From positions 1 through 35,000 of the forward strand of contig NZ_SPDV01000037.1 of the NCBI RefSeq assembly GCF_004564275.1: 35,000 nucleotides of DNA. Direction: 5' to 3'. Position numbers and translations under genes: made by a program. Shown here piece by piece: positions 10,832-35,000 of the stretch. The notes under the pieces were generated by a model that was given only the letters and a program-made list of their open reading frames with translations, was not told the origin of the DNA and ran no database searches. Source of the DNA: Sphingomonas parva (ex Maeng et al. 2020) (lineage in GTDB: Bacteria; Pseudomonadota; Alphaproteobacteria; Sphingomonadales; Sphingomonadaceae). How positions within the stretch are numbered: the first letter of the stretch is position 1; each line of letters opens with the position of its first letter.

Positions 10832-11185
10832 ATGCGAAATTTTCATTGGAATTCTGTTTTATCTTGGCTGCTTTCTGCCTTCTTTATCGTGGGAGGGATC
10901 AGCAATATCATAGCTTCCGAAGCGATCCTGTCCGACTACGACCGCTGGGGTTATCCGGAATGGTTTCACTACGTAACTGGGATGCTCGAACTGACAGCCG
11001 CAATCCTGATCTTTCAGGTAAGAAGCCGGAAGGCTGGAATCGCCCTTGCTGCCGGGATCATGCTCAGTGCCGCAGTAACCGTGCTCGTTCACGGCGAACT
11101 CACGCGGGCGATCGCTCCGCTCCTGGTGCTGTTCGTTGCCATCGTGGCGTTCCTGACCACGGGAGCAAAAAGGAGAAGAACCTGA
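10832..11185 (+). CDS. DoxX-like small membrane protein
   Basis: The 117-residue protein has four predicted membrane helices, near residues 8-27, 47-63, 68-86 and 94-111. The block FFIVGGISNIIASEAILSDYDRWGYPEWFHYVTGMLELTAAILI is the DoxX_2 pattern: a Gly-rich first helix, then a 'WGYPxW...TGxLEL' segment leading into the second helix. Family members are small membrane proteins, some linked to quinone or thiosulfate metabolism, most of unknown function. ATG 10832 is preceded by GGAGTGGGTC, a good ribosome site, and the longer upstream open frame has none. It is monocistronic. Confidence 0.85.
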   Translation: MRNFHWNSVLSWLLSAFFIVGGISNIIASEAILSDYDRWGYPEWFHYVTGMLELTAAILIFQVRSRKAGIALAAGIMLSAAVTVLVHGELTRAIAPLLVLFVAIVAFLTTGAKRRRT

Positions 11186-11789
11186 GAGCAGACCGCTGCT
11201 CACGCCGGTGTCTTCCGCGAACCGTTCTTTGGGGAGAGTTCCGCCAATGGGATTGCCGCTAGGGGCGCTAAGCGGATGTTACCGGATAGGGCCGCCGAGA
11301 CGCGAGCACCCGATGACAGCGGCTCGAAAGACGCGGTGCTCAGCCAAGTTTGGGCGGTAACCCACATCCGGGTGGAGTCTGCTCCTGCCGCGTCGGACGA
11401 ACCCCGCCGCCCTTGGAAGGAGCACTGACTTGCATGTCCTTGCGCCGAAGGGGCCAGCTCCTCTTTCGTGCTTCCTTGATCCAAGTATCAGCAAATCCGG
11501 CCTGAACCTCACCAGGCGGGGCGGCAATCCGCATCGCACTGCCTAAGGAGCACGGCCTCTTGGCCGAGCACGTTGGCAATCTCGCGTAAGAAGCAGACCC
11601 AGGCCTTGGCCTCACGGCTTCGAGGATCAGCGTCGAAAAACCATGAAGAGGCAATCGGGATCGCCGTCCCATCGCCTCGAGAATACGACTGGTTTAGTAC
11701 GGAGCGCGGACCGCAAAATGAACTCGCGGGAACGCCTTCGCCGGGGGACAGTTGCGCCTAATGAGGGCGACACATTGAAGGAACCTGAG
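11186..11789. other. Long gene-free stretch, possibly decayed sequence
   Basis: About 600 bp with no acceptable gene. On the minus strand around 11520-11650 a short run in one frame (containing [30 protein letters not shown]) has protein-like composition, but it is cut by a stop and has no start signal. It may be a fragment of a lost gene. The last 20 bases carry the ribosome site of the aldo/keto reductase gene. Confidence 0.3.
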
Positions 11790-18111: not shown

Positions 18112-18209
18112 GGTTCACGCCGGGTGCCGTTGGGCCCGGCAGGCCAGAGGGCGTCCGCTTTCTCGGACGCGCCTCGCATCATCGTTGCTCAATGGAGGAC
18201 TTTGATATG
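18112..18209 (+). ncRNA. ROSE-like RNA thermometer in the hsp20 leader
   Basis: The leader folds into consecutive hairpins: GCCGGG (18119-18124) with CCCGGC (18135-18140), GCGTCCG (18151-18157) with CGGACGC (18164-18170), and a third that traps the ribosome site. In the third, ATCA (18178-18181) pairs with TGAT (18203-18206) and CTC (18188-18190) with GAG (18195-18197). The hallmark TTGCT (18185-18189) faces AGGA (18196-18199), leaving the G-G mismatch characteristic of ROSE elements, which precede small heat-shock genes in rhizobia and other proteobacteria. Confidence 0.65.
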
Positions 18210-18701
18210 AGGAACAACTATGACCTGAGCCCGTTCCGGCGTGCCACTGTCGGCTTGGACCGGCTGTTCGACATGCTCGAGAACGGCATGACCGAACAAG
18301 CGGCGGACAATTATCCGCCCTTAGATCTCGAGCAGGAGGCCAACGACCGTTACCGCATTACGCTCGCGGTAGCTGGCTTCCGACCCGATGAGATCGACAT
18401 TACCTCGCAGCAGAACCTGCTGATCGTCAGCGGCAAGAAGCGCCAGCAGGACGAGCGCAGCTATGTCCATCGCGGCATTGCGGCGCGCTCGTTCGAGCGC
18501 CGATTTGCGCTTGACGATTATGTCCAGGTCCGTAGCGCCGATCTGCGCGAGGGTTTGCTCTCGATCGAGCTCGTGCGCGAGCTGCCCGAGAGGATGAAGC
18601 CGCGCCGGATCGAGATCCACGGGACCGAGGGCGCGGCGCGGCTGAGCGACCAGCGCGATCCGCCTGCCAATGAGAACCAGAAGGATCGTGTCGCCGCCTA
18701 A
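18207..18701 (+). CDS. hsp20: Small heat-shock protein, IbpA-like class A
   Basis: This 164-residue ATP-independent holdase has the opening YDLSPFRRATVGLDRLFDML typical of IbpA/HspA proteins, the alpha-crystallin domain (residues about 40-130: YRITLAVAGFRPDEIDIT to ADLREGLLSIELVRELPE) and an IEI motif (RRIEIHG) for oligomerisation, then a polar tail. ATG 18207 is chosen because GGAGGA at 18194-18199 lies 7 bases before it; the in-frame ATG at 18192 overlaps that site. It is preceded by the sigma-32-like promoter and ROSE-like leader. The second Hsp20 gene follows after 92 bases. Confidence 0.93.
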   Translation: MRNNYDLSPFRRATVGLDRLFDMLENGMTEQAADNYPPLDLEQEANDRYRITLAVAGFRPDEIDITSQQNLLIVSGKKRQQDERSYVHRGIAARSFERRFALDDYVQVRSADLREGLLSIELVRELPERMKPRRIEIHGTEGAARLSDQRDPPANENQKDRVAA

Positions 18702-18793: not shown

Positions 18794-19294
18794 ATGAACA
18801 TGCGTGATCTCATCCCCTGGGGCCGGCAGAGCAGCACGGCTCCGGTGCAGTACCAGAACCAGGACAACCCGATCGTCGGCTTCCGCCGCGAAGTGGACCG
18901 GCTGTTCGACGATCTCTTTCGCGGCTCCCTGCCGAGCCTTGGCCTCGGCGGCTCCCTCGCCGCATGGCCGAACGTCGAGCTCAGCGAGACTGATCGAGAA
19001 ATTCGCATCACCGCTGAAGTGCCCGGCATGAGCGAAAAGGACGTCGAACTGCTGATGGAGGACGGGGTGCTCACCATCCGCGGCGAGAAAAAGAGCGAGA
19101 CCGAGGATAAGGATCGCGGCTATTCGGAGCGTTATTATGGCCGCTTCGAGCGCCGGATCGCCCTTCCCTCCAACGTCGATGAGCAGGGCGCCAACGCCAA
19201 CTTCAAGGACGGCGTGCTCACGGTGACCCTGCCCAAGTCCGCGGAGGCCGACGGCGGTCGGCGCATCCCCATCAACGGTGAGACAACACACTAA
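18794..19294 (+). CDS. Small heat-shock protein, second Hsp20
   Basis: The 166-residue Hsp20 has a distinct N-terminal arm (MNMRDLIPWGRQ, typical of 'class C' alphaproteobacterial members), then VDRLFDDLFRG, the alpha-crystallin domain with VPGMSEKDVELLMEDGVLTIRGEKK and ERRIALPSNVDEQGANANFKDGVLTVTLPK, and the C-terminal IPI motif (RRIPIN). A strong AAGGAGG at 18780-18786 precedes ATG 18794. It probably shares the heat-shock transcript of the gene before it but has its own open ribosome site. Two different Hsp20 classes can form mixed or separate oligomers; which applies is unknown. Confidence 0.92.
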   Translation: MNMRDLIPWGRQSSTAPVQYQNQDNPIVGFRREVDRLFDDLFRGSLPSLGLGGSLAAWPNVELSETDREIRITAEVPGMSEKDVELLMEDGVLTIRGEKKSETEDKDRGYSERYYGRFERRIALPSNVDEQGANANFKDGVLTVTLPKSAEADGGRRIPINGETTH

Positions 19295-20326: not shown

Positions 20327-21007
20327 TCAAATCTGAGCATCGAGATATCTCCGGACCGACCGCAGGCCCTCGAGACCGGTGAGCATCAGCTCGAGCGCGG
20401 AGCCCCCGCCGAAGATTTGTGCGGTGTTCGCCTTGCGGATCCAGGCGTCTGCACGGTCGGGAACAGGCAATAGCGAGTTGATTGCTTTGAAGATACCGAG
20501 CGCCAGAGACAGCCGCTCGAGGGCCTCCGCAGGGAGGCGGGCGGGAGGAGAGGATCGCCAGTGGCGAAGCGTGTGACGATCGACGCCCAGCAGCTCGGCC
20601 TCCTCCGCTCTCGTTAGGCGCCACGCTTCTGCAATGCCATCGAGCACCCGCATTGCTGGGCCGACGACGTCCAGCCGCGCAAGGGCGATGACCTCCTCTG
20701 CATCCTGGTCCGATCGCAGAGCCTTGCGGAGCGGCGGCTCGCCGCCGAGCAGCGGGTGCGGAGCCCGCAGAAACTTCTCGGCCCGCTCCGCATCACCGGC
20801 GTAGCCGTCGGTGATCTCCCCCCGGACCCAGGCGACGCGGTCGCGCTCCTCAACGGCACGCGCCGTCGCCTCGCGGAAGCCCTTCAGGATGAAGGCGGCG
20901 AGCAAATGGCCGTTCCCCGTCTCCACGAGGTCGAGGAGAGTCGGCGGCAGTTTCTGAGTGGCGAGCCACTGCTCCAGCTCGTCCATGAGCTCCTTCTCAC
21001 TCGCCAT
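20327..21007 (-). CDS. Duplicated MbcA/ParS-type domain protein with central HTH
   Basis: The 226-residue product appears to hold two copies of the short MbcA/ParS C-terminal (DUF2384-like) antitoxin domain: residues 74-113 (AERAEKFLRAPHPLLGGEPPLRKAL) and 185-226 (DRADAWIRKANTAQIFGGGSALELML). An Xre-like HTH lies between them (about 124-165, LTRAEEAELLGVDRHTLRHW). Such antitoxins normally pair with RES-domain toxins; none is next to it. Instead it overlaps the MobA/MobL-like gene by 11 bases at the end of the mobilisation operon. It may regulate the operon or be an orphan antitoxin. Start ATG 21007. Confidence 0.65.
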   Translation of the reverse strand: MASEKELMDELEQWLATQKLPPTLLDLVETGNGHLLAAFILKGFREATARAVEERDRVAWVRGEITDGYAGDAERAEKFLRAPHPLLGGEPPLRKALRSDQDAEEVIALARLDVVGPAMRVLDGIAEAWRLTRAEEAELLGVDRHTLRHWRSSPPARLPAEALERLSLALGIFKAINSLLPVPDRADAWIRKANTAQIFGGGSALELMLTGLEGLRSVRRYLDAQI

Positions 21008-21623
21008 AACCGGCCTCCCGCCGCACCCGCTTCCACTCGCGATCGATGATCGCCCGCCCCTCCTCCGCGTTGATCAGCGGCATCACGAAAGTCGTGAAGC
21101 CGGTGGGTCGAACACGCCTGACTGGAAGAATAAGGTGGCTGTGCGGAATGCCGTGCCCCCAGCTTCGGCCAGGTACGTGGAAGACCACAACCACCGCGAT
21201 TTCGAGCTGGGCACCCAGCTCTACGCCAAGCTGACGCGCGCAGGACCACGCTTCGTGCATGCGCATCGTGGCCGGAACAGCGTCCGTTTCGACATGACGG
21301 AGAGTCGTGACCGCAGCCAGGTGCTGGATCGCTCCCCGCTCATTTCGATGGAACGCACGCGCCAATTGTTGCGGATCGGAGAACTCGTCGGGCGCTCCCC
21401 GCGGCAGCAGAATCTCCCATCGATCGGCAGTCGGAGGCGGCCACGGCAGCGCGCGATCCGGCTTGTCAGTAGGGAAGGCCCGCTTAAAAAGTACGTCCTC
21501 CAGCGTCCGCCGGGGCAATCCTGCCCCGGCGGACGCTTCAACGACGCCATAGCTGACGTCTGGATCTTCCCCGGTGACCGGATCGTAGTCGAGGCCAGGC
21601 GGGGCCTTATGCTTCTTGGCCAT
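20997..21623 (-). CDS. MobA/MobL-like HUH-fold protein
   Basis: The 208-residue protein contains, at residues about 130-175, VVFHVPGRSWGHGIPHSHLILPVRRVRPTGF, which resembles motif III of MOBQ/MobA-MobL relaxases (HxxxxxPHxHxxxxxR). The following INAEEGRAIIDREWKRVRRE resembles the family's 'IRxxWxxxxN' end. The N-terminal catalytic Tyr region of a relaxase is not recognisable, so it is probably an accessory or degenerate HUH protein. It starts 3 bases after the preceding gene and overlaps the next by 11, so it is part of the operon led by mobC and the relaxase. Confidence 0.55.
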   Translation of the reverse strand: MAKKHKAPPGLDYDPVTGEDPDVSYGVVEASAGAGLPRRTLEDVLFKRAFPTDKPDRALPWPPPTADRWEILLPRGAPDEFSDPQQLARAFHRNERGAIQHLAAVTTLRHVETDAVPATMRMHEAWSCARQLGVELGAQLEIAVVVVFHVPGRSWGHGIPHSHLILPVRRVRPTGFTTFVMPLINAEEGRAIIDREWKRVRREAGYGE

Positions 21624-23063: not shown

Positions 23064-24851
23064 TCACCGCGCCTTGCCTTTACGCTGCAGGTGAGAGGCT
23101 TGATCGACGACAGACGGGCCATCCTCCTCCGGTTCGTGGGACGGCGGCACGAGCGAATGGGGAGAAACCGCTGCGACGTTCTCCCAATTGGGGTCACGCT
23201 GCGGCAACGGGCCCGCATCCGCCACCGGTGCCAGTGGCTTCCGGTGGACACCCGCTCTGGCAACTGCCGCCGGCTTCGGCTCCGGCAGCAGGCGACGACC
23301 GGCATGATCGACAAGAACGATGCCCCGCTCAGCTGCGAGCTCGGTCGACAGTCGGACATACTCGGACGAGCCGGACACGCGCACCGTTTTCCAGCGGGCT
23401 GCGGCCATCTCGAGGGCTATCGCGATGTTCTTCGGATCACCATTCATGACCACGATCACGCAGCGATGATCCTCGATGACGACCCGGCCATCGACGTCCA
23501 GGTAGAGCGTCGTCCAGCCGTCGCGGGCATGGTGCAGGGATGTCGTACTGGACGGGACAGCGCCGGACACTCCGCGGACGTTGGCTCCCGGGAGCATGAT
23601 GCTCGGCAGCATGGTGGCAGCAGGCGCCGATGGCTGACCCGCTGTGAGCCATGCCTCAAGGCCCAGCCGGCTCTTGGCAAACCCATCCTTGGTCGTCGCG
23701 AACGCCGTCGTGATCGCACCTTTCGCCGAGGCAACTTCCGCCCGCATCGCGGCGCCCATCGCGGCAGCTACGAATCCGGGTAAGGCCGGATCGATGTCGG
23801 ACAGGATCGCGGCCAGATGATCATCCAGCCTGGCAAGCTCCGCCGCCTGCGCTGCTCGAATTCGGTCGAGTTCGTTGCGGCAGGCTTGCCTGTATGACTC
23901 GAACGCAGCGTTCGCGCGCTGCGGGTCCGGCCGGAAAGGGCCGAGACGCGCTTCGACTGCCGTACGTGAGCATTCACGCCCGAAACGGCTGGCCGGGTGC
24001 GTATCGTCACCGACGGTGATCGTGGCCCCAGAACCCTTGCGGTCGTATCGGACACCGAGAGGACGCAGGCGGGCATGGAGGTCGTGCCAGTCGGAAGCCT
24101 CAGTGATCGAGGAGACGATGCGTTCCCGAAGAGCGGGGTCGAAGCCTGGCAGTGAACCCAGGTTATCGCGGCGATTGCGTGGCGCCTGGGTGCCATCTGC
24201 CGTCCGGAGAAGCGCCCCGCTCTCGACGTCGTACACCGCTCCGCTGCGCGCTACGAACTTTGCGCCGGGCTCCGGCTCCCACCCCTGGCGCTCCTCGATA
24301 ATCGCCCGCGCTTGGGCCATGCGATCCTTGTCCCACCCGTCACCAGCCTGGACCATTTTACCGGTGATCGGGTGGACACGGTTGCCGAGGATATGGAGGT
24401 GCCAGTTCTCGGTGTTGGTGTGGAGGGACCACAGCATCTGACATTCCTGGATGCCCATCACTTCGGCGAAGATGCCGACGCTCTCCTCGGCCTGCTCGCG
24501 GGTCGGCTGCTCATGCGCCTTCCAGCTGAGGACCCAATGATCCAAGGGGAAGTGCGAGCGCGGGCAGCGGGCGGACACCGCCAGCATATCGATCTGCCAG
24601 TCCTCGAACCTGTCGCCCTCCAAGTTGAGGGCCCCGAAGGCCTCGACTTTCTCACCCGGCGAGATGCCGAGCTCGTCCATCAGCTTAGCGTCGACCACGT
24701 AGTTGGACATGGCGCGGACATGGGCGGACTCGATCAACCGCTCGGGCTCCGCATCGACCAGATAGCAGCTGAGGACGATGACCGACTCCGCGAGCCTCAG
24801 GATGGTTCCTCGCCGCCGCATCTGCCCTTTGCGAATGCGCTTAATGATCAT
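23064..24851 (-). CDS. MOBP (TraI/VirD2-type) relaxase with LPD7-like domain
   Basis: The 595-residue relaxase carries the three MOBP motifs: Tyr30 in LSCYLVDAEPERLIESAHVRAMSN (like RP4 TraI Tyr22 with its ER...HVR context), motif II with His105 in DHWVLSWKAHEQPTREQ, and the HUH motif at residues 149-153 (ENWHLHILGNRVHPITGK). It nicks one oriT strand and stays attached to its 5' end. The C-terminal part around 430-500 (WTTLYLDVDGRVVIEDHRCVIVVMNGDPKNIAIALEMA) resembles the LPD7 domain common in alphaproteobacterial mobilisation proteins. Its ATG overlaps mobC by 11 bases. The oriT lies upstream. Confidence 0.9.
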   Translation of the reverse strand: MIIKRIRKGQMRRRGTILRLAESVIVLSCYLVDAEPERLIESAHVRAMSNYVVDAKLMDELGISPGEKVEAFGALNLEGDRFEDWQIDMLAVSARCPRSHFPLDHWVLSWKAHEQPTREQAEESVGIFAEVMGIQECQMLWSLHTNTENWHLHILGNRVHPITGKMVQAGDGWDKDRMAQARAIIEERQGWEPEPGAKFVARSGAVYDVESGALLRTADGTQAPRNRRDNLGSLPGFDPALRERIVSSITEASDWHDLHARLRPLGVRYDRKGSGATITVGDDTHPASRFGRECSRTAVEARLGPFRPDPQRANAAFESYRQACRNELDRIRAAQAAELARLDDHLAAILSDIDPALPGFVAAAMGAAMRAEVASAKGAITTAFATTKDGFAKSRLGLEAWLTAGQPSAPAATMLPSIMLPGANVRGVSGAVPSSTTSLHHARDGWTTLYLDVDGRVVIEDHRCVIVVMNGDPKNIAIALEMAAARWKTVRVSGSSEYVRLSTELAAERGIVLVDHAGRRLLPEPKPAAVARAGVHRKPLAPVADAGPLPQRDPNWENVAAVSPHSLVPPSHEPEEDGPSVVDQASHLQRKGKAR

Positions 24852-26220: not shown

Positions 26221-27150
26221 ATGGCAGAGAGTAGTAGTGTTATGAGTAACCCGCCGACCGTTATCCTGTCCGCCAGTCCGAAGGGCGGCTGCGGGAAGAC
26301 GACAGTCACGGACGCAACGGCTTCGGTGAGCGTCGCGTCCGGGCACAGCACGCTGGTCGTGGACGTCGATGACGGGAACAGCGGCTACAGACGCAGAGCC
26401 GGAAAGGGAGCTGCGCTCTCGCTGTCGTGGACCACGACCGCCGACCGCACAAGGCCGTGGCTCGCCAAGAACGTGTACGGCAAGGACGTCGTGATCTTCG
26501 ATCTCGGCGCCAACCTGGTCGCAAGCGAGAGTCCTGTGACGGAATTCCTCGGCGAGGCCATCCTCCAGCTGAAGGCGACCGGCTCGCGAATTGTGTTCTT
26601 CGCCATCGCGTCGCCGAACGCGCCCGGCACGGGGCGCCTGATCAGGTCCATGCGGGACGACTACAGTTCCGTTGCCGAGGTGTACATCGTCGAGAACAAC
26701 GTGGATGGCTCGAATGCCTTCCCGGAGAACATGGGCACGTTCGGCATCACGACCATCCCCTTCCCGCACATGGACCCGGGCATCCAGGCGGTTCGCATGC
26801 TTCGTGAGGAACCGCTCCTCGAGGTCTTCCGCGCTCCGTCGCCGGGCTATGAGGTCGCCACCGCTCGTTACGCTCAGAAGGTTGCCAGCTTCGCGAAGCA
26901 AGAGGCTGTGCGCGGGCTCTTCGGAGACGACGGCCTCCCTGAGTTCCAACGGCTCGCTGCCGCGGCACCGGGCGGTCTGCGTTATGCCATCGGCGGCCTT
27001 CGTGGAGCCAGGAACGAGGCGATCCGGGCGAATGAGAGATTGCTCCTCGCGTCCCGTGAAGTTCGGAGCGCAGACAGAACGAACCGGGAGCTGGTCTATG
27101 CGAAGGCGATCGAGCTCATAGATGCGGAGGCCGCTTACAGGGCGATCTGA
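26221..27150 (+). CDS. TraL/ParA-like P-loop ATPase
   Basis: The 309-residue protein has the deviant Walker A KGGCGKTT (residues 21-28), a Walker A' segment LVVDVDDGNSG (45-55) and a Walker B-like VVIFDLGAN (90-98). It lacks a ParB partner gene, which argues against plasmid partition. Its position right after a TraK-like gene next to oriT matches RP4 traL, a ParA-type ATPase of the leader operon whose role in transfer is minor or unclear. The last ~70 residues form a helical tail. ATG 26221 follows the upstream stop by one base. Confidence 0.8.
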   Translation: MAESSSVMSNPPTVILSASPKGGCGKTTVTDATASVSVASGHSTLVVDVDDGNSGYRRRAGKGAALSLSWTTTADRTRPWLAKNVYGKDVVIFDLGANLVASESPVTEFLGEAILQLKATGSRIVFFAIASPNAPGTGRLIRSMRDDYSSVAEVYIVENNVDGSNAFPENMGTFGITTIPFPHMDPGIQAVRMLREEPLLEVFRAPSPGYEVATARYAQKVASFAKQEAVRGLFGDDGLPEFQRLAAAAPGGLRYAIGGLRGARNEAIRANERLLLASREVRSADRTNRELVYAKAIELIDAEAAYRAI

Positions 27151-27740: not shown

Positions 27741-29327
27741 TCAGAGTTCGCTGTTTCTGGGGGCGGAAAAGGTTAGCTCACGCTCCGCAAAGTCGCTGAT
27801 CGACGCCTTCCCGGTGACCCTTGCGCTGAGCACATCGGTCATGGCGGCCTCGAAGGCGTCGACGACCCTGTCCGGCGTTTCGGCGAGCGTGTGCTCGAAC
27901 AGCAGCGCGTCGTGCATGGGCAGGACCACCCTCACGTCGCTCATGGAGGCGGCCGCCAGCAGCGCGCGCTTGAATATCAAAGACGCCGTCCCTTGGACCA
28001 CCTGGCTAACGGCCGAGCGCTGTTCCTTCCCAGTGAGCTGACCGCCGCCACTCCGTCGGTAGTGGTTGCCGAAGACGGTGGTCACCCGGCCGGTACGCTG
28101 GAATTCGGCCCATACGGACTTCTTCCAGTCCTCGTACCGCTGGAAGAGCCGGAATGCCTCCTTCGCCTTCTGTCGGTCTACCCCGAGCGAGGAGGCTGCA
28201 TCTACCAGAGCTTTCCGGCTCATTCCGTATGCGTATGACAGAAACAGCTGCTTGGCGGCCTTTCGGTTGCCCACCAGGTCCAGGTGTGTGTTCGCGAAGA
28301 GATCGTACATGTCGCCCGCGGCGTAGAGACGCTTAAGCTCCTCGTCGTCGGAGAGGGCGGCCATTATGCCGACCTCGAACTGATCAAAGTCGACGTAGCT
28401 GAGTTGGGCGCCATCGTGCGCGCTGATGATGGATCGGTACCGTTTTGGGATATTCTGGAGGCTGGGACTGCGCAGTTGGACGCGGGACGTGCGCGAGCCG
28501 AACACGTCCACGACTGGTCGAGTGCTGTTGCTGGTCAATGTGAGAGAGCCGAGCACGCGACGTGCGGTGTCGAGGGCAAGCAATGCCATGGTATCGCCGC
28601 CGAAGTCGCGGTCGTGTGGCACGAACTCGAGAAGGTACTCGACGGAGACCTCGTCTAGTTCGAAGCCCTCCAGAAGCAGCTTGGCCTCTATGGTGCGCCT
28701 GCTCGGCGTCTCGAGCGGCATGTCGTGTTTGGCGGAATAATCCTTTAGCAACAGGAAGTAGTCGTGCTCCGCCTGGCACCGCTTTTCCGAGAGTCCCGCC
28801 GCGTCGATGGAGATTCCGGCTGACATGGAGAGCTGTAGCACGCGGTATGCCGGTACCTCGACAGTGAAAAAGCGCTCGAACTCACCGTTGGCAAATGCCT
28901 GCGTGCAGAGGTCGAGGTACATCGCCCCGAGCGCCGTCGCGGCCTGGGCGGCGATGACCCCATCGAACGGGACGCCCTTGTTGAACATTTTCTGATAGGC
29001 GTCGCAGACTTCCTGCTCCGCCCCATACTGCCCGAGATGTGTCGTCACATCGCGCTTCTCGCGGGCGAGCCGGTCCTCGGGGACACCGCTGATCGAGATG
29101 CGGAGCTCGTCCACGTCGACGATTGTGCGGGGCAGAGTCCCCGTCTTGTCGAACAGCGCGTCGCGGATCATCCAGAAGTCGTGGCATACGACGATTCCTG
29201 CGAACCCGACGACGCTTGCGGCATCGGTTTCCTGGAGCTGGCCATCGTGGAACCAGTAGAAGGAGTCAGCTCCCCTGCCGGTGAAGTCCCTCGTGAAGAG
29301 CATCAGCCTAGAAGGCAGGTCAATCAT
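27741..29327 (-). CDS. Family A (PolA-like) DNA polymerase coupled to a reverse transcriptase
   Basis: The 528-residue protein (from ATG 29327) keeps the family A polymerase core: GSRTSRVQLRSPSLQNIP before the palm, motif A YVDFDQFE with catalytic Asp313, motif B with Arg355, Lys359 and Tyr367 (RKAAKQLFLSYAYG), the QGTA segment, and motif C LPMHDALLFE with catalytic Asp473. Two usual residues differ: the motif-B Phe (E. coli F762) is Leu363, and the Glu of HDE (E883) is Ala474. There is no 5' nuclease domain; residues 1 to about 150 may be a degenerate 3'-5' exonuclease fold. A TTG 21 bases upstream would add 7 residues, but ATG overlaps the RT stop as ATGATTGA, so the two are co-translated. 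It is unlikely to be the housekeeping enzyme. Confidence 0.88.
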   Translation of the reverse strand: MIDLPSRLMLFTRDFTGRGADSFYWFHDGQLQETDAASVVGFAGIVVCHDFWMIRDALFDKTGTLPRTIVDVDELRISISGVPEDRLAREKRDVTTHLGQYGAEQEVCDAYQKMFNKGVPFDGVIAAQAATALGAMYLDLCTQAFANGEFERFFTVEVPAYRVLQLSMSAGISIDAAGLSEKRCQAEHDYFLLLKDYSAKHDMPLETPSRRTIEAKLLLEGFELDEVSVEYLLEFVPHDRDFGGDTMALLALDTARRVLGSLTLTSNSTRPVVDVFGSRTSRVQLRSPSLQNIPKRYRSIISAHDGAQLSYVDFDQFEVGIMAALSDDEELKRLYAAGDMYDLFANTHLDLVGNRKAAKQLFLSYAYGMSRKALVDAASSLGVDRQKAKEAFRLFQRYEDWKKSVWAEFQRTGRVTTVFGNHYRRSGGGQLTGKEQRSAVSQVVQGTASLIFKRALLAAASMSDVRVVLPMHDALLFEHTLAETPDRVVDAFEAAMTDVLSARVTGKASISDFAERELTFSAPRNSEL

Positions 29328-31020
29328 AGCCGCTGACTTCGTCGACAAGGTTCAGCAGATCCGTGTTCTCGCGGACGGCGAACGGCAGGCCGTCCTCATT
29401 GCAGTGCCGCTCAGCCCTGGGGCTGGTACCCTTCAGGCAAATCGGCACATGGCCATAGAGGGGACGCAACGCCTCTTCGTCGAGCACTGACGACGCGATC
29501 AGGAGGTACCGGGCGTTCTGGTAAGGCAGGGAGCCGAACTCCCCAATGCACTTTTCAAGGAGGGCCTTTTCGTCCACGCAACGCAGCCAGATGAGGATTG
29601 CCGCCGCCTCGCCCGACTTCATGTCCTCCCGCAGCTTACGGTCCGCCAGCGCCACGAGCTCGTCGGAACGGTGTCTCCGCACCGCGAGCAGCATCCAGAT
29701 GTTGTAGTTCTGCCAGTCGTGGATGGCCCCATCTTCGGCGAGCAGGAACGCCTCCAATGCCGGCAGGCAGCGACCGTCGCGGTCCAGCGTGGCTATCAAC
29801 CGGCAGTATTGGTCGGTCGTGACCGCATGCTCGGACAGCGAGCGCGACAGGGTGTCGAGAAGGTTGATCGACAGCGCGTCGCCCACGTCAAAGAGGCCGG
29901 ACTCGACGATCTTCGCCACCCGGTTCACCGCAAAACGAAAGGTCCGCGTCTGCGAGTCTCCGGCTCCGATGCATCGGCTCAGAATGTCGAAGATGTAGGT
30001 CACCGACCTGGTCACGATGCGGCGACTGCGGGACTGCCACATCTGATTGATCGCGATCGTGGAGCTGTCCTGCGAGGGGAAGTACTCCGCGAGCTTCGCG
30101 CTCGAGACATCCGGGGCGAGGATCTCGGTCTTGTTTGCGTTTATGTTGAGACCGACTGTCCGCAGCTGCCTGATCAGATCCTGCAGCGCACGCCGGGCGT
30201 GCAGCTCGGAGTCCGCGATGATGCGGATGTCGTCCACGTAGCGGTAGTAGTCGTAGCCCTTCCTCGTCATCTCCCTGTCCACGAACGACAGCAGGATGTT
30301 GGACAAGAAGGCGGAGGCGTCGCGGTTCTGTGGGAGACCGTGATCCCGGCTGAACGTCCATTGGGAGAGTAGCCGGTCAAGCGTGGCGATCGCATTGCGG
30401 ATCTGTAGCTTCTCCGGGCCGGTCGCCACGAGGTCGGGAACCGCCCTCTCGAGCGCGTCTACGATCTGCACGCGCGACACGTTCTCGAAGAAATTGCTCA
30501 GGTCGGTGACCAGCAGATGGCGTCCAGATCTACGGAAGGTCAGCGTGACGCCCTCGAACGTGAACCAGCGGTCGATCTTGTTCTTGAACAGGTACTTCGG
30601 GTTCAGCGGCGCTGGCTCGTAGCGGTAGCTTAGCACTCGGTGACCGAGAAGCGAGTCGTAGAATGGGATTAGGAAGCTGCAGATCGCCTGATAGACGAAG
30701 CGGTCGAAGAAGTCGGTTTCTAGTCCGTAGCGCTCGCCGTATCCCTTCTTCGGTATGTTCCGGACGATGCTCCGAGTGCCGCGATACACGCCGTTCCATT
30801 CCTGCAGGAGCGAGATAATGATCCGCTTCGCCTCGGCTGCGTCCTTGAAGAGATCGTCGTACTGCAGGCAGTCGAAATACCAGTCGTCGCGCATATCTTG
30901 GCGGAGGTGCTTCAGCACCAGATCGAACTGCACTGGAAATCCCAGTGCCTGACCGTTCAGCCAGAAGGCGGGATTGAGCACATAGTCGGCCTCGTCGTCA
31001 GCTTCGCTACTGCTTTCCAC
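29320..31020 (-). CDS. Abi/UG-like reverse transcriptase with helical C-terminal domain
   Basis: The 566-residue product (GTG 31020) has RT motifs in order: an N-terminal IVRNIPKKGYGERYGLETDFFDRFV region, fingers and palm segment TDLSNFFENVSR (motif A), LPQNRDASAFLSNILLSFVD (motif B), and YYRYVDDIRIIA with the YVDD catalytic pair at 261-264, then LNINANKTEIL. The following ~250 residues are helical with no recognised domain, as in Abi/UG (defence-associated) RTs; there is no maturase or Cas1 domain, so a group II intron or CRISPR origin is unlikely. GTG 31020 has GAGGGA upstream; TTG 31101 is an alternative (593 residues) without a ribosome site. It shares an operon with the polymerase gene. 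Confidence 0.88.
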   Translation of the reverse strand: MESSSEADDEADYVLNPAFWLNGQALGFPVQFDLVLKHLRQDMRDDWYFDCLQYDDLFKDAAEAKRIIISLLQEWNGVYRGTRSIVRNIPKKGYGERYGLETDFFDRFVYQAICSFLIPFYDSLLGHRVLSYRYEPAPLNPKYLFKNKIDRWFTFEGVTLTFRRSGRHLLVTDLSNFFENVSRVQIVDALERAVPDLVATGPEKLQIRNAIATLDRLLSQWTFSRDHGLPQNRDASAFLSNILLSFVDREMTRKGYDYYRYVDDIRIIADSELHARRALQDLIRQLRTVGLNINANKTEILAPDVSSAKLAEYFPSQDSSTIAINQMWQSRSRRIVTRSVTYIFDILSRCIGAGDSQTRTFRFAVNRVAKIVESGLFDVGDALSINLLDTLSRSLSEHAVTTDQYCRLIATLDRDGRCLPALEAFLLAEDGAIHDWQNYNIWMLLAVRRHRSDELVALADRKLREDMKSGEAAAILIWLRCVDEKALLEKCIGEFGSLPYQNARYLLIASSVLDEEALRPLYGHVPICLKGTSPRAERHCNEDGLPFAVRENTDLLNLVDEVSGYD

Positions 31021-31413
31021 TGCAGAGTGATCCCTCAGTTCCGCCAGGTTAAGCCCCAGACCGCGGCACGGTCTAGCGGGTTTCGACCGAATCGTCAGCA
31101 ACGGCCGCGCGGGCCGACGGCGTCATCCGTCCATACCGACGGCGCGACCATGCCGATCTTGCGGACTCGAATCGTGCCGATTTTCGGAAGATCTGACTGG
31201 TGACCTCCGAGGCGGTAATTCACTTCCCCCCTGGTTCTGGTGCGTCACGTCTGGCGGTGCGGACCGCGGCCCTCCCGAAACGCCCAAAAACGGGATTGGC
31301 GGCTTGCTGCTCTTGCCCCGCTAAGCTGCGAGTCAGCTAACGGCCAACTTTCGCCGATCCGGAGGGGCCGCCGCGGCGCACCGTAGGTTGCACCGCTGCA
31401 GGTGCTCCTCAAA
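31021..31413 (-). promoter_or_regulatory. Leader/intergenic region upstream of the RT gene
   Basis: Nearly 400 bp separate the RT start from the next, divergent gene. A perfect hairpin, AGACCG (31058-31063) and CGGTCT (31069-31074) with a 5-nt loop, lies in the leader 38 bases before GTG 31020. Another small hairpin, GCACC/GGTGC, is at 31390-31405. Some defence RTs use a non-coding RNA from just this position; none can be proven here. No protein gene is present. Confidence 0.4.
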
Positions 31414-31429
31414 TTCAGGTTACCCCCGG
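31414..31429 (+). repeat. 16-bp direct repeat, left copy
   Basis: TTCAGGTTACCCCCGG, identical to 33461-33476. It lies 51 bp before the AlpA-like gene. Together the copies bracket about 2 kb holding that gene and the 473-residue protein gene. Confidence 0.85.
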
Positions 31430-31435
31430 CCCCAG

Positions 31436-31455
31436 ACCAGAGTGCTTTATCTGGT
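31436..31455 (+). promoter_or_regulatory. Inverted repeat before the AlpA-like gene
   Basis: ACCAGA (31436-31441) and TCTGGT (31450-31455) form a 6-bp stem 25 bases before the start codon, possibly an operator. Confidence 0.4.
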
Positions 31456-31480
31456 TTGTCCTCACACTTTGGAGGACGAC

Positions 31481-31723
31481 ATGAAGAGCATAGATGACCT
31501 TAAGAAAGCCCTCAAGCCTGATCAATACGGACGCGTGACCCTCGCCAATGTTGCGGCGGTTGTCGAGCTCCACCGCATCACTATTCATCGGAGAGTCAAG
31601 AACGGCACGTTCCCGCCGCCGCTCGAAGGGCTCACTCGTGTGATGTGGATGTTGGAAGACATCGTTACTTACTGGGAGCTGTTCGGTCCCCGCCCTTGGA
31701 ACCCGTGGCAGCCCCGCATGTAG
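31481..31723 (+). CDS. AlpA-like HTH protein
   Basis: The 80-residue protein has an HTH of the AlpA/MerR-like group: VTLANVAAVVELHRITIHRRVKNGTFPPPLEGLTRVMWMLEDIVTYWELFG, where 'RV..GxFPxP......R..W...D...W' is the usual recognition pattern. AlpA-like proteins act as activators of integrase genes or as excisionases on islands and phages. Its own ribosome site GGAGGACGAC directly precedes ATG 31481. It lies between the two copies of the 16-bp direct repeat and upstream of the serine recombinase, which suits a recombination-directionality role. Confidence 0.8.
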   Translation: MKSIDDLKKALKPDQYGRVTLANVAAVVELHRITIHRRVKNGTFPPPLEGLTRVMWMLEDIVTYWELFGPRPWNPWQPRM

Positions 31724-32010
31724 ACTGCAAGCGGCCGCATCCTCAGGACGAGTCTCAAACATTGCTGTAGACAACCTGCCCGAGTGAACATACCTATAGG
31801 GTACTGCCCCGGGTATGAGGATGCGGCCCGCGGCATTAGGTATAGCCGGCTGCGTGCTCCAGACGCAGCCGCCGCAGATCACGAGGGGCGCGCTCATCCC
31901 CTCTTTTTTCGACCTGGCGCGGTACGACCAGATGAAGCCGCTCCCACGCACGCGGGGGTATTTGTTGTCGATCCTGGAGCGGTCGACGCAATGGCTGAAG
32001 GTTGTACTAC
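31724..32010. other. Intergenic stretch
   Basis: A 78-codon frame at 31815-32051 begins with a lipobox-like LGIAGC, but has no ribosome site, and a minus frame overlaps it. I make no gene call. GAAGG just before 32011 serves the next gene. Confidence 0.3.
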
Positions 32011-33432
32011 ATGCGTCAGGAGAATGGATTGGGGGCTGCAGCCTCCCGTAATGAGCAAGTTACCGTTTGGGGAAAGGCGCGGCGGCGAAAGGTCTCTGCG
32101 GAGCGTGCACACGCGCCTGCGCAGGCCGCCTGTTTGAACGTCACCAGGAGGGGCGTCGACCCCGAGGAATTCGCCGACGCCGCGCTGAACTTCATCCACG
32201 CGTCAGTTCGCGGCCAACCCGGACGTGCCAGAGGACAGATCGATCGTCTCGCCAACTCCGTCCGCACAGGCGGGCTGAGCGAGGATCAGGCCCGCGAGCG
32301 GTTGCATCCGCGAGCCGGACCGTTGCCGCCCGTGCCCTCTGCGCACCTCGAGTACGCTTACTCGATCCCCACAGCGAGCTACGCCGGCCCGGTCTCCACA
32401 AGCGGCTTCGCGGCGCTCATGATTTCGCGTCGACGAGACGAGGCCGTGATCGAGGTGCTGGAGAAGCATCTGGGCATCTCGCATGAGAGCCACGGAGACG
32501 ATCTGAACGCCTTTCGATCGCAGCACCCCGGCATTTACCCGCTTATCGTGGCGGCGAAGCTGGGCTCTGCGATGGAGGCCGCAAAGTGCGCGGGGTCGAG
32601 CACGCTGATCGGGAGAACGGCGGCCCTAGTCACCCAGCACGCGTTGCACCTCGCCGTAGCGACCGCCCATATCCGGATCGCACTGCTTCGCTCCTATGCA
32701 CGGGAGCCGCTGGGCGGGGGGTTCGCCGGGCGCAAGGAGTGGCTCAACATGGGCCACGTCTGCACGTCGACGCTGATCGAGCCCGCCAGGGCTGTCCACA
32801 ACCTGCTGGACCTCGAGATCCCCGCTGGCGCTACCGATGACGAGGCGATCAGCCTCGCCACCGCAGCGGGGGCCCTCCCGGCGGATGGATCGGCAGGTGC
32901 CGTCGTCTCCACGGCCAGGAGGGTCAGGGAACAGCTTCCGGCGCGCTTCAAGCATGACAATGCCTGGATCTACGTCCCGCATGTCGCAGCCCTCGTGCAG
33001 AAGCATGTCCGCCCGCTCGCCGGTCTCGGTGTCGCGGATCTCAAGGCTGCCAAATGGACGAAGCAAAGCTTCTGCGAGCAGCGGCTGGGCGTCAGCGCCT
33101 CGGAAGGCGCTGTGATCGTCGCGATGAACCTGCTGCTCGCAGGCGAGCGGATCGATGCGTGCGTGGTGGCCAAACGCGCCGAAAAGCCCCTCCCCACGTT
33201 CCCGGACGCACCCGCGGCAAACAGCCTGGCCACAAACGCGCTGGCGCGGATTACGGAGGCGCTCCGCGTCGAAGGGCAGCCGGACCGCCACTCTCTCCGC
33301 GAAGTTGGGGATCCGGACAATCACACCAGTCGGCAGCTCGTGCTGAAGGTTCGCGGGAAGGTCGCCGCCGGCGGCGTTGGGGACGCCTTGCAGCACCTGC
33401 GGATCGACCCGTCGGTATGGTTCAGGAGGTGA
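32011..33432 (+). CDS. Hypothetical protein in the repeat-bracketed cassette
   Basis: The 473-residue product is not recognised. The body from about residue 40 (RRGVDPEEFADAALNFIHASVRG) is mostly alpha-helical with Ala- and Leu-rich stretches, no signal peptide and no obvious membrane segment. Motif-like spots are HPGIYPLIVAAKLGSAMEAAKCAG and WLNMGHVCTSTLIEPARAVHNLL. The start is uncertain: ATG 32011 has GAAGG about 10 bases upstream; TTG 32134 would be a shorter option. It lies between an AlpA-like gene and the recombinase, inside the direct repeats, so it may be cargo or part of the mobility module. Confidence 0.7.
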   Translation: MRQENGLGAAASRNEQVTVWGKARRRKVSAERAHAPAQAACLNVTRRGVDPEEFADAALNFIHASVRGQPGRARGQIDRLANSVRTGGLSEDQARERLHPRAGPLPPVPSAHLEYAYSIPTASYAGPVSTSGFAALMISRRRDEAVIEVLEKHLGISHESHGDDLNAFRSQHPGIYPLIVAAKLGSAMEAAKCAGSSTLIGRTAALVTQHALHLAVATAHIRIALLRSYAREPLGGGFAGRKEWLNMGHVCTSTLIEPARAVHNLLDLEIPAGATDDEAISLATAAGALPADGSAGAVVSTARRVREQLPARFKHDNAWIYVPHVAALVQKHVRPLAGLGVADLKAAKWTKQSFCEQRLGVSASEGAVIVAMNLLLAGERIDACVVAKRAEKPLPTFPDAPAANSLATNALARITEALRVEGQPDRHSLREVGDPDNHTSRQLVLKVRGKVAAGGVGDALQHLRIDPSVWFRR

Positions 33433-33660: not shown

Positions 33661-33674
33661 GGAGGGCCGTGCGA

Positions 33675-35000
33675 TGAGGCTACAAAAGCCCCGGGTTGCC
33701 ATCTACGGCCGCCACTCGACGGACAAGCAGAACCCGATGTCGAGCGCCGACCAGGCCGCCTCCTGCATGCCGCTGGTCGATTACCTCGGCGGGGAGGTGG
33801 TCGGAACCTACCTCGATGGCGAGGTCTCCGGCTACAAGCGCGACCGACCGGGTCTCCGTGCCCTGCTGGCCGATGTTCGAGACGGCAAGATCGACGTCGT
33901 CGTCTCTGAGGCCCTCGATCGTCTCGCACGTGACGGCGAGGACATCGCCTGGCTCGGCAAGAAGCTGCGCTATGATCGGGTCCGGCTCTTCACAGTCACC
34001 GAGAATGAAATCGACGACGTGAAGCTCGCTGTCGCCGGCCTGCTCGGGTCGATGTTTCTCGCAAACCTGCAGTTCAAAACTCTCCGGGGCATGGAGGCCG
34101 CCGTGATCGCGGGTAGGTTCGCCGGCGGCCGCGCGTACGGCTATCGAAAGGTCGTGCGGGTCGATGCGCGGGGTGAGGCCGTCCGCGGCGGTCTCGAGGT
34201 CGAGAACGAGCAGGCGGAGATCGTGCGGCGCATCTTCGACGAATTTGCCTCCGGCCTCTCGTCGATCGCAATCGCCAAGCGGCTGAACGAGGAAAGAATC
34301 CCAGGCCCGCGCGGCGGCGCCTGGAATGCGTCGACGATTCGGGGCGATCCGAAGAAGCTGGTCGGCATCCTCAACAACCCGCTCTACCGCGGCGAGCTCG
34401 TATGGAAGCGGCGGGAGTGGCGCAAGAATCCCGACTCCGACAAGCGCGAACGGCGCTACCGTCTGCGAGACGAGACCGAGTGGCTGCGGGTCGACATGCC
34501 CGACATGCGTATCGTTGACGAAGGCCTCTGGAATGCCGTTCAGGCGCAGCTGGCGAGCCGCCGACGGGATCCGAGCGTCACGCCCTCCCCTGTCGTGCAG
34601 CGGCGGCGCAAGCACCTCCTCTCCGGCTCGATCCGGTGCGGGACGTGCGGCTCGAACTACACGATCTCCGGCAAGGACTATTATCGCTGCGCCGGCGTGA
34701 AGGAGAGAGGGACGTGCAACAATCGCCTCTCCGTCCGCAAGGGAGCTTTGGAGGGCGCCGTGCTCTCGGTCCTGGAGAGTTGTCTGCTTACGCCGGAGCT
34801 GGCTGAGCTGTTCGTCGGCGAGTTCAAGCGCGAAGTTCGTCGGCTCTCGGAAGGCGTCGACCGGGAGGCCGGCGATGCGGCCCTGCGGCTCGCGGAGCTG
34901 GAGCGGCAGATCGACACGCTTGCCCGCAACATGCTGGTAAGCGAAGCGAGTCCTACGCTGCACCGCATGCTCACCGAACTCGAGCGCGAGAAGGCGGACC
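33675..35000 (+). CDS. Large serine recombinase (truncated by the right edge)
   Basis: At least 442 residues are visible. The N-terminal resolvase domain shows the nucleophile Ser15 in AIYGRHSTDKQNP, SADQ, and the EALDRLARD helix; then comes the large-serine-recombinase domain (AGGRAYGYRKV, EIVRRIFDEFASGLSSIAIAKRLNEERIPGPRGGAWNASTIRG), ILNNPLYRGELVW, and a zinc ribbon with Cys pairs in LLSGSIRCGTCGSNY and YYRCAGVKERGTCNN. A coiled-coil-like segment begins at about residue 405. GTGAGGAGGGCC precedes ATG 33675. It is the probable integrase of the element; its attachment site is not identified, but the 16-bp repeats are candidates. Confidence 0.92.

Follow-up and report, generated by a model that had tools for sequence, protein, structure and literature searches.

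We describe a pair of overlapping genes at positions 27741 to 31020 of a 35,000-nucleotide stretch of DNA from Sphingomonas parva (contig NZ_SPDV01000037.1, positions 1 to 35,000), which we call the window. The pair consists of a reverse transcriptase (RT) of the UG9 family and a family A DNA polymerase of the family called RTasPolA and, judging by its retention among relatives, it is a real, conserved two-gene unit and not a chance neighbourhood. We read it, tentatively and with somewhat less than even confidence, as a candidate defence module carried on a mobilizable element, in which the RT would begin DNA on its own penultimate tyrosine, Tyr565, without a template, and the polymerase would supply the second strand. 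The pair as such already has a place in catalogues as a candidate phage-defence system, because PADLOC contains an RTasPolA model and the myRT table contains an entry for UG9 with PRK14975. What is new here is the invariance of the penultimate tyrosine and the state of the polymerase's exonuclease site, neither of which appears in the passages on UG9 in the literature cited.

Both genes lie on the minus strand. The RT gene (29320..31020) runs from a GTG at 31020 to a TGA at 29320-29322 and encodes 566 amino acids. The protein matches Pfam RVT_1 (E 2.4e-12), with D173 in motif A, the segment GLPQNRDAS at residues 228-236 in motif B, and YVDD at 261-264; no other RVT_1 match occurs in the draft genome, which comprises 4.49 Mb in 111 contigs. 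Among 19 listed close relatives, 11 have a GTG at the matching place and eight have an ATG or GTG a few codons off, while a TTG at 31101, upstream of the GTG, would give an alternative RT of 593 amino acids. The polymerase gene (27741..29327; 528 amino acids, ATG at 29327, stop at 27741) matches Pfam DNA_pol_A (E 9.6e-28), and the Pfam scan matched no 5' nuclease family in this protein. The genes overlap at 29320..29328, also on the minus strand, as TATGATTGA, with the polymerase ATG inside the end of the RT gene. The codons for the two C-terminal residues of the RT, Tyr565 (the predicted protein primer) and Asp566, occupy 29323..29328. The first-pass annotation of the window had described an RT with a YVDD site overlapping a PolA-like polymerase that lacks a 5' nuclease, both on the minus strand, and this description stands in each part. 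A scan for promoters and terminators returned nothing exceeding chance.

The RT scores 786 bits against the PADLOC profile RT_UG9_small, over residues 43-586 of a 586-residue reading of the protein, and the runner-up profiles are far behind: 264 bits for UG9_large, 163 for UG32, and about 49 for UG10. The NCBIfam models for group II, retron and DRT proteins all score far under their cut-offs, with 63.6 bits against 300 for the group II maturase, 38.9 against 235 for retron St85 and 22.6 against 350 for Drt3b. By these profile scores, the RT is a UG9 enzyme and belongs neither with group II introns nor with retrons, in agreement with the Abi/UG-like label of the first-pass annotation. The partner scores 581 bits against RTasPolA. 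The same annotation had taken the combination to be an undescribed type, and this part of it fails. UG9 had been named by 2014, in a study where it joined the Abi lineage in one of two tree methods (PMC4244168); a PRK14975 polymerase domain neighbours or is fused to 94% of UG9 RTs in the myRT survey (PMC8934634, Table 4); and the 2023 PADLOC-DB has a dedicated RTasPolA model under the label DRT. The UG9 and RTasPolA of PADLOC and myRT are the same RT family over nearly its full length and the same partner family, encoded by adjacent genes, and nothing essential differs in the window.

We compare 29 distinct related loci (designated by L numbers): 22 from species genomes, two on contigs of a viral collection, three on plasmids and two from further genomes. 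L093 duplicates L006, with identical flanks of 1530 bases, and is dropped from the tree and the locus count, though kept in the alignment rows. L016 and L023, whose RTs are truncated, are excluded from the alignments; L012, with a split gene, is excluded from the polymerase alignments and trees; and for L022 the larger RT piece alone is used. This leaves 29 rows in the RT alignment, 28 of them distinct, and 28 rows in that of the polymerase, 27 of them distinct. Across the RT rows, the active-site residues D173, Y261, D263 and D264 are invariant.

A polymerase gene follows the RT in 27 of the 29 loci, which runs against the refuting case named in the first-pass annotation, that homologues of this RT usually lack the polymerase. 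The two loci that lack it are L016 and L023; every full-length UG9 RT in this set adjoins a polymerase. Even the most distant pair, L095 (36% identity for the RT and 27% for the polymerase), scores 690 bits against RT_UG9_small and 451 bits against RTasPolA. The genes overlap in all 27 pairs, provided that the polymerase starts at TTG in L018 and at GTG in L021, and they do so in at least two registers. Over 27 pairs, which include the window but not L012, the distance matrices of the two proteins correlate with r = 0.99; inside the 20-member main clade r is 0.95, and in neither case do any of 5000 permutations reach the observed r. The two trees have 15 of 24 splits in common; of the well-supported splits, 13 of the 16 in the RT tree are also found for the polymerase, and 14 of the 15 in the polymerase tree also for the RT. 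Such agreement fits long co-inheritance, and it would fit simple linkage equally well. In eight comparisons the ratio of nonsynonymous to synonymous substitution rates (dN/dS) lies between 0.04 and 0.10 for the RT and between 0.05 and 0.17 for the polymerase; these values are rough, because dS is high in some comparisons. As far as these ratios tell, both genes are under purifying selection. From such selection, together with the retention of both genes in 27 of 29 loci, we conclude that the pair did not arise by chance.

Some copies have irregular genes. The polymerase gene of L012 and the RT gene of L022 are each split between frames, and are apparently decaying or mis-sequenced. In L013 (Vreelandella lutescens) the polymerase is interrupted in frame, at 10948-11232, by about 95 additional residues, and this insert has no Pfam match.

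Tyr565, the penultimate of the 566 RT residues, is invariant in all 29 RT rows (28 distinct), down to 36% identity. The polymerase ATG takes up two of the three bases of the Tyr565 codon in the main clade and in L095, so the overlap could partly explain why the residue is kept. The overlap is ruled out as the whole reason by the six divergent members L017-L022, where the polymerase starts downstream of the Tyr codon: these keep the tyrosine free of that constraint, three with TAT and three with TAC, while their last RT residue varies (Ser, Pro or Cys). Among other RTs returned by the same profile, only one of 23 has a tyrosine within its last three residues (the C-terminus was readable in 23 of 29 loci). 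In the structure of DRT3b, DNA is attached to the penultimate residue, Y666 of 667, and the Y666F mutant loses the adduct (PMC13174585, preprint). The conserved penultimate tyrosine of UG9 resembles Y666 in position only. Its invariance suggests that the RT may build DNA on itself, and we infer that Tyr565 would be the priming residue.

The second enzyme was placed in a profile alignment with E. coli Pol I and 29 further bacterial PolA sequences, in which some positions were counted along the alignment. In E. coli Pol I, D705 and D882 are the catalytic metal-binding aspartates, and R668, E710, R754, K758, Y766 and Q849 contact the dNTP or the template. Pol I D705, D882, H881, E710 and R668 correspond to D313, D473, H472, E318 and R282 of the window polymerase, and R754, K758, Y766 and Q849 correspond to R355, K359, Y367 and Q445. 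D313, D473, E318, R282, R355, K359, Y367 and Q445 are invariant in the 28 polymerase rows (27 distinct), the 27%-identical member included. Judged from the catalytic aspartates and the dNTP-site residues, polymerase catalysis is likely to have been retained. At the exonuclease site the alignment is weak: Asp3 stands opposite D355, but residue 3 varies, with Ser in L004 and with Asn in both L011 and L089; E357 has no acidic counterpart; D501 falls in a gap; and D424 alone has a possible acidic partner. Because the exonuclease acids of Pol I are mostly unmatched in this weak alignment, the 3'-5' exonuclease, and with it proofreading, has probably been lost.

It is useful to set the pair against its closest relatives. 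With E. coli Pol I (the Klenow fragment), the UG9 polymerase shares the polymerase domain, both catalytic aspartates and the dNTP-binding residues. It differs in lacking the 5' nuclease and, in the weak alignment, the conserved exo I acid pair and any counterpart of the exo III residue D501, and also in having HDA for HDE and Leu for Phe762. Thus, it does not have the full PolA layout of 5' nuclease, 3'-5' exonuclease and polymerase; the polymerase domain alone matches. The RT domain is homologous to the solved chains of AbiK (E 4.9e-9) and UG15 (E 4.8e-10), which links it to AbiK, AbiP2 and DRT4, the template-free, protein-primed UG/Abi RTs. AbiK and AbiP2 are single proteins. DRT4, too, is a single-gene system (PMC13213688), whereas the full-length UG9 RTs compared here all have the polymerase alongside. 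Two further systems, like UG9, bring together two DNA-making activities. DRT3 (UG3 and UG8; Drt3a and Drt3b with a non-coding RNA, ncRNA) has two polymerases per module; DRT3b primes from its penultimate tyrosine, which is also the position of Tyr565, and the DRT3 product is double-stranded DNA (dsDNA). The second enzyme of DRT3 is another RT, however, and works with an ncRNA, whereas in UG9 it is a family A polymerase and the RT is the single RVT_1 protein of the genome. In DRT7 (UG10), the RT is joined to a primase-polymerase (PMC13213688), so that, as in UG9, the RT has as its companion a DNA-polymerizing domain from a different family. DRT7 is one fused protein, in contrast to the separate family A polymerase of UG9, whose RT scores only the 49 or so bits given above against UG10 profiles.

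By analogy with DRT3 and DRT7, we propose that UG9 makes Tyr565-primed DNA and that its partner makes the second strand. The RT would start DNA on the hydroxyl of its own Tyr565, with no RNA template encoded in cis, to yield protein-bound single-stranded DNA; the coupled family A polymerase would then copy the RT-bound strand into dsDNA. For the trigger we look to DRT3, in which a protein-primed RT and a second polymerase produce dsDNA whose level RecBCD keeps down and which is set free once a phage blocks that nuclease (PMC13174585). In the same way, a phage infecting a UG9 carrier might block the host nucleases that clear the product, which would then build up and stop growth, an abortive infection. 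Protein priming, template independence, the second-strand role, the trigger and defence itself are all steps that we infer by such analogy; the idea of the first-pass annotation that the polymerase copies the first strand made by the RT is plausible. A stronger form of the proposal, which we regard as doubtful though possible, is that UG9 represents a third route to dsDNA, in which a template-free, tyrosine-primed RT and a proofreading-dead family A copier would make long, error-prone dsDNA tied to the RT. In the literature searched we found no case in which a captured Pol I makes the second strand for a phage-defence system.

The template code of DRT3b was considered as a guide to the UG9 product. 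L098, a Drt3b homologue (732 bits), ends in Tyr and has in motif B the Arg that corresponds to R241, and a full-length hhalign comparison of UG9 with L098 gives a probability of 0.1. The transfer of the protein-template code was dropped, given the lack of a useful alignment and the state of the specificity residue R241 of DRT3b, to which we return below.

The window pair sits between two genes of a mobile carrier. On one side, at 23064..24851 on the minus strand, lies a MobA/VirD2-type relaxase with TraI-middle and LPD7 domains, the mobilization gene of the carrier; on the other, a large serine recombinase (Resolvase, Recombinase and zinc ribbon domains; 33674..34999, plus strand), the probable carrier integrase, runs off the end of the window. 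The first-pass annotation had placed the pair inside a mobilizable element, where it would fit as defence cargo; the relaxase and recombinase agree with the location, and the carriage of the pair as mobile cargo, with defence-model proteins beside some copies, agrees with the fit. A ParA/CbiA-like ATPase of the element (26221..27150, plus strand) matches below the Pfam cut-off. Carriers vary among copies and include a PRTRC-bearing plasmid, plasmids that encode type IV secretion, and a genome contig of 3.27 Mb. All five plasmid records with a match are typed as conjugative or mobilizable, three of them being Dinoroseobacter shibae plasmids of equal length. On L090, a 488-kb conjugative plasmid of Paraburkholderia sprentiae, the RT is 91% identical to that of the window; since the window is alphaproteobacterial, this identity points to transfer between classes. 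In this root-nodule betaproteobacterium the pair directly precedes the PRTRC gene cluster.

The UG9 family is rare in the sampled genomes. In a class sample of 385 genomes, 59 have profile matches, of which only the one in the window's own genome reaches a full-length UG9 score, the next best being 81 bits. UG9 occurs in four of 396 genomes of an order sample, the own genome included (E 1e-30), and a search of 398 genomes of the phylum with L017 as query returns the window's own genome alone (E 1e-25). No UG9 was found in 50,697 phage records. The viral-contig collection yields two loci, and none with L095 as query; a plasmid search with L095 returns the same five records.

Turning to the neighbours, none of 11 window ORFs (open reading frames) near the pair, among them the relaxase, the ParA-like gene and an HTH-like gene, was found in the DNA compared around 29 other copies, which extends for about 10 kb at most on either side (E 1e-5). 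The neighbour scan covers 129 ORFs, picked mechanically by length, at 22 loci; L090-L092 (18 of 147 ORFs), L016, L023, L094 and L095 are left out. Among the PADLOC matches listed (the first 25 families out of 63 and out of 88), PD-Lambda-4_A occurs next to L002 (1135 bits), a HamB-like helicase next to L005 (224 bits), and ZacB (351 bits) and ZacC (839 bits) next to L014; a retron RT and restriction-modification proteins are further such neighbours.

Several other features of the window are recorded here. Between the pair and the recombinase, the plus-strand ORFs 31388-31723 and 32002-33432 have no Pfam match (E 0.1) and no relatives beside other copies. A ROSE RNA thermometer (Rfam RF00435, 56.3 bits, gathering score 45) at 18120-18213 on the plus strand overlaps the start of an HSP20 ORF (18192-18701), which is followed by a second HSP20 ORF at 18794-19294. 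At 20327-21007, on the minus strand, an Xre/MbcA/ParS-type antitoxin gene overlaps a minus-strand ORF at 20997-21623 with a sub-threshold MobA_MobL match; the two genes are possibly a toxin-antitoxin pair or a relaxase remnant.

A number of observations weigh against the reading of UG9 as a template-free, two-enzyme defence module. In the literature searched, to which this statement is confined, we found no functional or experimental study of UG9. UG RTs do not all prime from the same site: the priming residue of DRT1 is an internal serine, S402 (PMC13275509). By a by-eye comparison of motif B, the place of R241 in DRT3b appears to be taken by Ala or Ser237 in UG9; because R241 thus appears absent, the UG9 product is not predictable from the DRT3b code. 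A terminal tyrosine alone does not imply template independence either, because DRT9, which probably primes from Tyr496/Tyr498 of its C-terminal tail (PMC12483538), and DRT10, which primes from a C-terminal Ser or Tyr (PMC12632851, preprint), both do so together with an ncRNA. In one clade, that of L007, L008, L091 and L092, the RT gene is preceded by a leader of about 230 nt that is conserved at 73-85% identity. In the polymerase, Glu883 of HDE has become Ala474 and Phe762 has become Leu363, so its activity could be weak or altered. Lastly, of eight neighbours tested singly, three have no match (L010, L012 and L022) and that of L015 is weak; because the defence-model neighbours were counted without a background control, they are supporting evidence only.

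The DRT9 and DRT10 precedents and the 230-nt leader lend themselves to a first alternative, in which the RT copies a small RNA, encoded in the leader or elsewhere, into cDNA, as in DRT2, DRT9 and DRT10, and the polymerase then makes the second strand. The 230-nt leader may be a long 5' untranslated region (UTR), a promoter region or an RNA. The consensus fold of its four sequences, however, shows no covariation, with none of 52 pairs changed on both sides. Among close relatives of the window copy, blastn (E 1e-3) traces similarity upstream for about 115 nt at most and picks up none to the window downstream; between any distinct loci, downstream similarity reaches at most about 140 nt. The weakly conserved leader of the window's clade, about 75 nt long (31021..31097, minus strand), is probably a 5' UTR or promoter; a 280-nt window leader folds no better than shuffles (z -0.02), and Rfam has no match at the pair. 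An ncRNA in cis was thus sought by comparing the flanks of loci that have both genes, and by leader alignments, Rfam and folds, and no family-wide conserved flanking ncRNA was seen, though a fast-changing or distant RNA may escape such a search. We consider RNA templating unlikely.

We think it similarly improbable that the polymerase, with its catalytic activity slight or absent, serves as a sensor or control subunit that binds the DNA of the RT or phage replication intermediates and gates toxicity. The HDA and Leu substitutions and the probable loss of the 3'-5' exonuclease site are what such a role might leave behind, and the polymerase dN/dS lies somewhat above that of the RT in all eight comparisons; against this, both metal-binding aspartates and the residues that contact the dNTP or template are invariant in all the polymerase rows. 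That the pair is no defence system and serves its carrier, for example in the maintenance or replication of a plasmid or integrative element, would suit the mobility of all five plasmid records and the place of the window copy between relaxase and recombinase, but seems to us quite improbable given that none of the 11 window ORFs recurs with the pair, that carriers differ, that defence-model proteins (counted without control) lie beside several copies, and that other UG/Abi RTs, in the papers cited, are phage-defence RTs.

DRT systems have lately revealed several new ways of making DNA, and DRT3 and DRT7 together suggest that the pairing of an RT with a second polymerase recurs. UG9, a compact and catalogued case, differs in its partner, which is a family A polymerase, and, if our proposal of a tyrosine-primed RT and a second-strand polymerase is true, its immune dsDNA would be made unlike that of DRT3 or DRT7. 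With a penultimate tyrosine that never varies and proofreading that is probably lost, what was a gene association yields concrete questions for point mutants, and whether dedicated enzymes make the products of template-free RTs double-stranded becomes a question that may be tested directly.

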